Made by a program: the position numbers and the translations under genes. Of a stretch of DNA of 39,574 nt, positions 1-1,139 are shown in pieces. The stretch's first letter is position 1; every line of letters starts with the position of its first letter. Origin of the DNA: a virus. Location: IMG/VR virus record IMGVR_UViG_3300005548_000478, positions 1 through 39,574 of that record. The stretch is one strand, 5' to 3'. The notes beneath the pieces are model-generated. The model made no database searches. It was not told the origin of the DNA and worked only from the letters and a program-made list of their open reading frames with translations.

Positions 1-522
1 TCAGGCCCTCCCATCCTCCGCCGTCATGGTGGAAAGCAGACTTGAGAACAGCCCACGCGAGCGCCGCAGCCAGGCTGCAAACTCCGTTGCCGGCGCCTCT
101 GGTTCGGTCCACTCGATCGGCCATCCCATTACCATCTCGTAGAAGCGCGGGTTGGAGATCAGGGCGCCGACAAAGGAGGTCCTGCCATGCTGAAAGCTCA
201 CCCGGACCGGGGGCGAAGATGGGTACATCGCCGTCGTCGGCGTCCAGCCCAGCGCCTTCATGATCAGCCAAAGCGATGTCCAAGTGCGCGCGCTCTCCCC
301 CAAGGCATATTGGCCGCCGCTGTGCGCCGGGATGTTCATCGGCGACGTGGTCCGAAGCGACCCCTCCTCGATGATCAGATCCGGGAAATAGCCGGCATCC
401 GAAGCGGTCGGCGTGGGCCAGGAAGAAGAGCCGGCGCCGGCGGTGGCGAGCGCCCGCTTCTCGCGCCGTGAACAGGCCCGCCTTAGTCGAGTAGCCCAGG
501 CGTCGAAGGTCGCCGAGGACAT
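1..522 (-). CDS. Overlapping ORF with methyltransferase-like C-terminal signatures
   Basis: This is a second open frame inside dcm, ending with TGA exactly at base 1. ATG 522 is a possible start, but the frame is open much further upstream, so the start is uncertain. From about residue 47 it has a WPTPTASDAG segment and near its end NPRFYEMVMGWPIEWTE followed by ATEF. From memory, these resemble C-terminal segments of phage cytosine methyltransferases. At the DNA level the MGWPIEWTE bases are the same as those giving GMADRVDRT in the dcm frame. It may be a separate overlapping gene, the true C-terminus reached by a frameshift, or a by-product of constrained codons. No function is assigned. 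Confidence 0.45.
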   Translation of the reverse strand: MSSATFDAWATRLRRACSRREKRALATAGAGSSSWPTPTASDAGYFPDLIIEEGSLRTTSPMNIPAHSGGQYALGESARTWTSLWLIMKALGWTPTTAMYPSSPPVRVSFQHGRTSFVGALISNPRFYEMVMGWPIEWTEPEAPATEFAAWLRRSRGLFSSLLSTMTAEDGRA

Positions 523-943
523 CGGAGAAGCCCAAGGACAAGTGTCCCTCGACGTTCTCGCAGAAGACCCACTCGGGTTCGACCTCCCCAATAATCCGGG
601 CGACGCTGGGCCAGAGGTGCCGAGGGTCCGATGAGCCTCCGCGCTTCCCGGCATGGCTGAAGGGCTGACAGGGATAGCCTGCAGTGACGAGATGAAGGCG
701 GCCGCGCCACGGGCGGCCGTCGAAGGTTCTAAGATCGTCCCAGATAGCCGCCTGACCCAAGGCCTGGTCCGCCATCCGTGCCACGAGAGTGGCCGCGGCA
801 TGGCTCTCCCGCTCGACGAAACATACAGTTCGATATTGGGGCTCGGCGATGTGCAGGCCGAGATCGAGGCCGGCGTAGCCGGCGCAGAGTGAGAGGCCCC
901 GAAAGTCATCGACTTCGGGGTGGTATTGGGGAGGTAGATCCAC
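1..943 (-). CDS. dcm: C5-cytosine DNA methyltransferase (3' end at or beyond window edge)
   Basis: Transfers a methyl group to cytosine C5; in this position it would modify phage DNA against host restriction, replacing Mu Mom. The frame starts at GTG 943, preceded by AAGGAG eight bases upstream. Visible motifs: SAM-binding motif I (LCAGYAGL, near residue 16), catalytic PCQ with Cys92, ENV with Glu129, the arginine-rich motif VIII (HRRRRLFF, near residue 175) and motif X GNGV at 285-288. The frame has no stop for at least 314 codons and runs off base 1, so its C-terminus is not seen. It follows com by 22 bases and is probably under Com control. The 3' part is also open in another frame (see the 1-522 entry), so a frameshift or dual coding must be considered. 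Confidence 0.85.
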   Translation of the reverse strand, partial: MDLPPQYHPEVDDFRGLSLCAGYAGLDLGLHIAEPQYRTVCFVERESHAAATLVARMADQALGQAAIWDDLRTFDGRPWRGRLHLVTAGYPCQPFSHAGKRGGSSDPRHLWPSVARIIGEVEPEWVFCENVEGHLSLGFSDVLGDLRRLGYSTKAGLFTAREAGARHRRRRLFFLAHADRFGCRLFPGSDHRGGVASDHVADEHPGAQRRPICLGGERAHLDIALADHEGAGLDADDGDVPIFAPGPGELSAWQDLLCRRPDLQPALLRDGNGMADRVDRTRGAGNGVCSLAAALAWAVLKSAFHHDGGGWEGL

Positions 944-957
944 AAGGCACGCTCCTT
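944..957 (-). promoter_or_regulatory. Possible hairpin over the dcm ribosome-binding site
   Basis: On the minus strand the Shine-Dalgarno AAGG (957-954) can pair with CCTT (947-944) immediately before the GTG start, with a six-base loop. A second small stem, CCGC/GCGG, spans the com stop codon just upstream. In phage Mu, Com activates mom translation by opening an RNA structure that hides the mom start. The same logic is plausible here, but a four-base stem is weak and the pairing was found by eye only. Confidence 0.35.
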
Positions 958-965
958 CGCGCCGC

Positions 966-1139
966 TCAGCTGGCGGTCGATGAAGGGCTCGCGGGCCTCA
1001 AAGAGTTGATTGTGCCGCAGCGGCGGCATTTGATCTCGATCACCCCGGCGATTGCACTCGCCGAGGCTTTGAACAGCAGGGCGCGGCAGCTCGCGCAACG
1101 GACGGGCGAAGGCGCGCCCTCCCTTGGACTCGACTCCAT
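966..1139 (-). CDS. com: Com-family zinc-finger translational regulator
   Basis: 57-residue protein from ATG 1139. It contains two CxxC pairs, CASC near residue 15 and CRRC near residue 37, linked by an LLFKA segment and followed by GTINSLRP. This is the signature of Com, the small zinc-binding RNA-binding protein that switches on translation of the downstream DNA-modification gene in Mu. The position directly upstream of dcm (22 bases) supports that role. The length is similar to Mu Com (about 60 residues). A GAGAG about ten bases before the ATG may serve as the ribosome-binding site. It is missed in a simple scan because a long open frame covers it. Confidence 0.88.
   Translation of the reverse strand: MESSPREGAPSPVRCASCRALLFKASASAIAGVIEIKCRRCGTINSLRPASPSSTAS

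Follow-up and report, generated by a model that had tools for sequence, protein, structure and literature searches.

Fully overlapping reading frames at a viral dcm locus probably encode the two chains of one C5-cytosine methyltransferase

Results

Two superimposed frames at the dcm locus

We analysed the complete virus record IMGVR_UViG_3300005548_000478 (39,574 nucleotides, hereafter the window), which carries a dcm locus on the minus strand, at its first positions. The locus includes the following features, given in the order in which they are read.

966..1139, minus strand: com-like zinc-finger ORF of 57 amino acids, ending 20 nt before the start of frame B
952..957, minus strand: Shine-Dalgarno sequence AAGGAG, 6 nt before the TTG of frame B and 8 nt before the GTG of frame A
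943..945, minus strand: start codon TTG of frame B, overlapping the start of frame A in TTGTGG
941..943, minus strand: start codon GTG of frame A, the sole ATG, GTG or TTG of this frame near the start of frame B
2..943, minus strand: frame A, proposed alpha subunit; 314 codons without a stop up to the end of the record, carrying motifs I-VIII and X of C5-cytosine methyltransferases
647..679, minus strand: motif IV of frame A, GYPCQPFSHAG (sequence motif)
80..91, minus strand: motif X of frame A, GNGV, codons 285-288; G285 and N286 are invariant
1..945, minus strand: frame B, proposed beta subunit, +1 to frame A; 314 amino acids, TGA at 3-1; matches phrog_1008 (E 6.8e-17)
391..420, minus strand: block WPTPTASDAG of frame B, just after motif VIII of frame A; conserved in B beyond the codon null
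109..153, minus strand: motif-IX-like block NPRFYEMVMGWPIEW of frame B; conserved beyond the codon null, with a second phrog_1008 match at 100-153

Frame A is a C5-cytosine DNA methyltransferase, with motifs I (LCAGYAGLDLG), IV (PCQ), VI (ENV), VIII and X and a Rossmann-type catalytic fold. It was matched by PF00145 in a Pfam profile search (E 3.2e-28) and by phrog_363 of PHROGs (E 4.6e-52). As originally predicted, the frame with motifs I, IV, VI and VIII stays open to the edge and reaches GNGV at codons 285-288; its stop codon lies out of sight beyond the edge, because the window is the whole record of a virus contig. The predicted structure of frame A matched M.HhaI with a Z of 23, with 210 of the 327 M.HhaI residues aligned. 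The catalytic domain and the motif X helices were modelled confidently, and the pLDDT fell below 50 at 188-228 and 264-282. Confidence is thus low where the small domain should be, a poor model in this region not being proof of absence. Motif IX was not seen in frame A.

Frame B begins with MWIYLPNTTP at the TTG of position 945, has no stop from far upstream down to the TGA at 3-1, and overlaps all of frame A present in the record. The original prediction placed two methyltransferase-like frames at the 3' end of dcm, in positions 1-522. Both frames are real, but their overlap is not limited to this interval, since B starts at 945. The features ascribed to the shifted frame were found where expected (WPTPTASDAG at 420-391, the motif-IX-like block at 153-109 and the TGA at 3-1), and MGWPIEWTE and GMADRVDRT are indeed read from the same stretch of bases. 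When each frame was searched separately, A matched PF00145 and phrog_363, and B matched only phrog_1008. This last family, labelled DNA methyltransferase, matched all 54 of the 54 aligned B proteins; the median length of B is 306 amino acids. No Pfam or NCBIfam family was found for frame B, Pfam gave no C5-methyltransferase match even for members carrying motifs IX and X, and there was no match to an HNH family in either database. Modelled alone with AlphaFold2, frame B gave no confident fold (pLDDT 55.8, pTM 0.24), and the comparison of this model with the PDB returned no match with Z ≥ 2. The 3' 144 amino acids of either frame, used as tblastn queries, matched no phage, and longer queries were needed; an alignment of nine B sequences was too diverse for the locus search.

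Both frames are under selection

We compared frame B with what is expected when the synonymous codons of frame A are permuted. In the window alone, the +1 frame of A has no stops, against 4.1 expected (P 0.005). None of the other large ORFs of the window that were tested showed a depletion of stops in +1, and the dcm of Escherichia coli, taken as a control, has 14. We then considered loci picked by the A protein only. The +1 frame was open from motif IV to near the stop of A in nearly all of these 89 loci and the +2 frame was broken, numbers that describe this methyltransferase clade and not all C5-methyltransferases, because the A seeds were partly chosen among loci with B. The GC content of the 89 loci ranged from 0.37 to 0.69, and the openness of +1 includes genomes of 37-45% GC. 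Among 14 loci less than 50% identical in A we counted two B-frame stops where 81 were expected (2000 codon permutations with the A protein fixed; minimum 61). These two stops are in two loci where A starts 4 nt before the ATG of B, and we attribute them to NTGA, inside which the counted stretch opens and which reads TGA upstream of B. Hence, no stop was counted inside B in the 14 loci.

The amino acid sequence of B is also conserved. A first test on 79 loci gave a z of 86 for the +1 frame but of 36 for the +2 frame, because related loci share codons and the constraint on B also shapes +2. The test was therefore repeated at less than 60, 50 and 42% identity. With A fixed, the 10 loci less than 42% identical gave for B a z of 14.4 in the LNP..MGxP block, 9.3 and 5.8 in the WPTP blocks, 7.8 in the overlap with motifs VI-VIII and 7.3 in the N-terminal part (6.2, 3.7 and 1.5, 2.8, and 1.6, respectively, in the +2 frame). 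The same null showed no conservation signal in B over motif X, where B ends. In two blocks B was more conserved than A: in LNP..MGxP, the residues of B are nearly constant (L in 50 of 56 loci, N in 72 of 75, P in 74 of 76, L in 68 of 77, M and G each in 73 of 77) and those of A mostly vary. Codon choice in A agrees with this. The M-G of B requires GAT or AAT and then GGG at the D/N-G site of A that underlies it; A uses GAT or AAT in 33 of 34 loci and GGG in 32 of 34, and GGG makes up 19% of the glycine codons of A overall. The differences between the window and one related locus (L005) were distributed over the three codon positions as 67/44/84 in A and as 48/50/169 in a neighbouring gene of similar divergence. 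The former pattern is expected if the third position of A is the second position of B.

We also selected loci by B. In 80 such loci from bacterial genomes, mostly Alphaproteobacteria, a script found A in 69; the other 11 were missed by the motif pattern, and translation of eight of these showed A in each, its motifs being ordinary or of the PCQPFTLSG type. No case of B without A was found in this set, by script (69) or by translation (8). The original prediction had considered homologues where only one frame is conserved: nearly all of the A-selected loci keep B, and the B-selected loci keep A. Of the options it left, genuine dual coding is the one borne out, as openness, conservation and codon choice in B all exceed the codon-permutation nulls, and we regard it as virtually certain.

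The two frames have paired start codons

The start codons of A and B were at most 5 nt apart in 77 of the 84 loci whose layout we assigned by pattern. The layout of the window, NTGTGG with the GTG of A 2 nt after the NTG of B, was the most common (n = 41); in other loci the NTG of A lies 4 nt before the start of B (n = 29) or 5 nt after it (n = 7). In the window, frame A is open for 52 nt upstream of its GTG and has no other start there. Five other loci (L029, L046, L058, L064 and L083) have a stop in frame A immediately before this point, and the GTG at +2 is the only nearby start of A in them. The first residues of B are conserved across loci (usually M, followed by W within two residues and then by P), and many loci have a good Shine-Dalgarno sequence. 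Sites of the AUGUG and GUGUG types can start both frames in E. coli (PMC9841429). By analogy, A and B are likely to be both started from one ribosome-binding site. Co-initiation at the UUGUG of the window is something we infer, because that study covers AUGUG and GUGUG and does not mention UUGUG.

A com-like ORF precedes dcm in 24 of the 153 loci scanned: in the window and 23 others it lies directly before the A/B start or runs into it. TGTGG is invariant across 18 com-dcm loci. Between com and the starts (window positions 941-1000, minus strand), the alignment of these 18 loci (alignment A6) shows nearly invariant GAGCC, CGAnCGCC and GAGC blocks, which are kept although com ends at differing places and possibly form a Com-binding site. 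The Com protein of phage Mu activates translation of mom (PMC6483171), and Com might thus control the dual start.

Frame B carries a motif-IX-like tail

The tail of B, LNPxWVEWLMGxPxGW, resembles motif IX of methyltransferases. The canonical form of this motif is close to LTPRExARLMGFP. Natural variants place this tail on the same chain as motif X. In mycobacteriophage Dylan, gp7 has motifs I-VIII only and gp6, which is read in the +1 frame, contains VNPAFAEWMMGWPDGW and IGNGVCPQQA; gp5 of Firecracker also joins a motif-IX-like tail to motif X. In two of our loci (L028 and L060) A stops after motif VIII and the frame of B carries both IX and X. Motif X therefore behaves, judging from these sequences, as if it could sit on either chain. 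For Corndog gp6, HHpred placed the last 53 residues on the C-terminal helices of the HaeIII methylase (PMC4351075).

A further candidate for a chain with both motifs, L029, was dropped: an HNH-like ORF in the third frame (CEGCGSRENLQRHHPDYSRPESIKVLCQSCH) appears to be inserted there, near motif IX of B, and resembles the out-of-frame HNH insertions described in PMC11855218. Two loci, L135 and L165, may have undergone further rearrangement, the frame of B ending 766 and 211 nt, respectively, past the end of A.

The assignment of B as the small domain of a methyltransferase rests on this motif, on gene position and on the chains of Dylan, L028 and L060, because B alone gave neither a confident fold nor a PDB match. 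A poor fold of the isolated chain fits a subunit that needs its partner and proves nothing. Besides the missing fold and Pfam match, other observations count against the two-chain reading. The predicted target recognition domain (TRD) of M.EcoHK31I is placed in the large subunit and not in beta in the description given in PMC3404938. In addition, A has an early stop in a few loci (L017, L059 and L078). In these, A ends behind motif VIII and a motif X is found further on in its frame, with B still open; A may be decayed or split once more, or the assembly may be wrong. Weighing all of this, we find a strong likelihood that B is the beta subunit of a two-chain C5-methyltransferase arranged like M.EcoHK31I.

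Distribution and annotation

Using tblastn we found B in phages of Paenibacillus, Lactobacillus, Bacteroides, Acinetobacter, Klebsiella, Mycobacterium, Vibrio, Salmonella, Microcystis and others. Only seven plasmid records had B; they are annotated as DNA cytosine methyltransferase and none is named EcoHK31I. Most records examined list a single gene at the A/B locus, among them that of HB10c2 and other phage records. In Salmonella phage S9-5 and in the Leptospira plasmid p2 (L094 and L095), only A is annotated, and B is open with a conserved start and a motif-IX-like tail.

Discussion

Both frames are under selection, their paired starts are conserved, each has its own motif content, and A is modelled as a catalytic domain with a low-confidence gap. 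The explanation that we consider very probable is that two genes, alpha and beta, overlap completely at this locus and together encode one heteromeric C5-cytosine methyltransferase. Alpha (frame A) would provide the catalytic domain, with the SAM pocket, the PCQ loop and motif VIII, together with motif X, and would have no recognisable small domain. Beta (frame B) would provide the WPTP block or blocks, a variable segment that is the probable site of target recognition, and the motif-IX-like tail. Ribosomes at one Shine-Dalgarno sequence would start both chains on overlapping codons, TTGTGG here and ATGTGG, GTGTGG or NTGNATG elsewhere. With a shared Shine-Dalgarno sequence and overlapping starts, both chains would come from one mRNA and could combine into an active enzyme, like the two subunits of M.EcoHK31I. 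We infer that B is translated, binds alpha and gives specificity, and that co-initiation is the mechanism.

The beta subunit of M.EcoHK31I is also read from an alternative frame inside alpha. This enzyme (YGGCCR) has motifs I-VIII and X in its large subunit and IX in its small one, as summarised in PMC3404938 (citing Lee, Kam and Shaw 1995), and the window resembles that summary in having I-VIII and X on one chain and a block that looks like motif IX on the proposed second. This likeness is one of described motif content. The predicted TRD of M.EcoHK31I is there reported in alpha; moreover, in the window the two chains begin only a few bases apart and beta covers almost the whole of alpha. M.AquI (CYCGRG) is another C5-methyltransferase divided over two polypeptides, and its smaller one has motifs IX and X (PMC3404938), an arrangement shared by Dylan gp6, L028 and L060; in the window, motif X is in the larger chain and the two genes overlap almost completely.

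Phages also offer parallels. In genes 6 and 7 of the Cluster O phages (Corndog, Dylan and Firecracker), which likewise have the halves of a C5-methyltransferase in two frames, coding potential was noticed in both frames, and the authors left open whether they encode two subunits or a frameshift product (PMC4351075). In Dylan the two genes overlap, as annotated, by about 200 nt and the second chain carries motif X, whereas the frames of the window overlap fully and start together. REDBUD_51 of Paenibacillus phage Redbud, annotated as 'g50 internal gene', lies like B inside dcm in the +1 frame and has WPTP-type and LNPDWVECLMGFPIGW blocks; unlike B, it has an annotated start that is internal, 184 nt into dcm, and it has been given no function. 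The AUGUG and GUGUG sites of E. coli resemble the window in having overlapping starts for two frames behind one ribosome-binding site, but they concern small peptides of unknown function, and UUGUG is absent from the text of that paper (PMC9841429). Phage ShiLan also has a hidden ORF in a methylase gene (PMC11855218), but its out-of-frame HNH is a homing insertion, whereas B, for which no HNH match was found, lies over the core of the enzyme.

Other readings of the locus are less probable. Long +1 frames are common in GC-rich genes, and openness alone is not unusual in several of our GC-rich loci (e.g., L014, L015, L018 and L019), as would be expected if B were an uncoded shadow of a conserved GC-rich methyltransferase gene. 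Yet, low-GC loci are open too, the blocks of B are conserved beyond the codon null and more than A, the paired starts often have a Shine-Dalgarno sequence, and both the GAT-GGG codon choice and the shifted codon-position spectrum speak against a shadow. The original prediction had kept a shadow frame among its options; the codon-permutation nulls, including conservation among the 10 loci less than 42% identical, reject it, and we consider it highly improbable. The chance that an assembly indel split one ordinary single-frame gene is practically nil: its only support is the existence of two frames, B does not follow A but lies over its full length, and an indel merging the frames is rejected because about 160 further loci, taken from independent assemblies and isolates, show this layout too.

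Two alternatives accept B as coding. Programmed +1 frameshifting from A near motif VIII would give an A-B fusion with an alternative C-terminus, and it is true that WPTPTASD of B follows RRRLFFL of A at the same bases, so that a +1 slip would read motif VIII into the WPTP block. However, selection on B acts far upstream of any such site, and the fusion would lose motif X, which is kept in A. With a conserved start and N-terminus of its own, and often a Shine-Dalgarno sequence, B does not require the frameshift choosing between C-termini that was first envisaged; we hold this frameshift to be very unlikely, though a minor fusion product may occur. B could otherwise be a separate overprinted protein, e.g., anti-restriction or regulatory, as it has no Pfam relative or confident fold, and its N-terminal half has no known methyltransferase counterpart. 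This seems unlikely given that B was not found without A, that B ends in a tail similar to motif IX, which Dylan gp6, L028 and L060 have on one chain together with motif X, that the model of A has no confident small domain, and that M.EcoHK31I provides a precedent.

A split C5-methyltransferase with motif IX on the second chain is of a kind known from the published description of M.EcoHK31I. In the literature that we searched, neither the complete overlap nor the pairing of the start codons nor the wide occurrence in phages appears to have been described, and no account of the nested gene family turned up beyond the papers cited here. The overlap spans about 300 codons and is conserved from AT-rich phages of Microcystis, Paenibacillus and Lactobacillus to GC-rich alphaproteobacterial genomes. 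Long overlaps on one strand with selection acting on both frames are rare and, to our knowledge, have been reported chiefly from small viruses.

We lean towards the view that these loci form a large and old class of methyltransferases, present in many bacterial phyla in phages and prophages, with almost completely superimposed subunit genes and one start pair, whose dual start may be controlled by Com in the com-dcm loci. The catalytic chain and the specificity chain would then share the bases of a single mRNA. If true, every such enzyme annotated as a single dcm would miss half of itself. The overlap changes the annotation, cloning and assay of many 'dcm' genes, since expressing a recoded frame A would destroy B. 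It also points to two products as the answer to the Cluster O question, open since 2015, and makes the A/B locus a naturally occurring system in which dual initiation at overlapping start codons can be examined.
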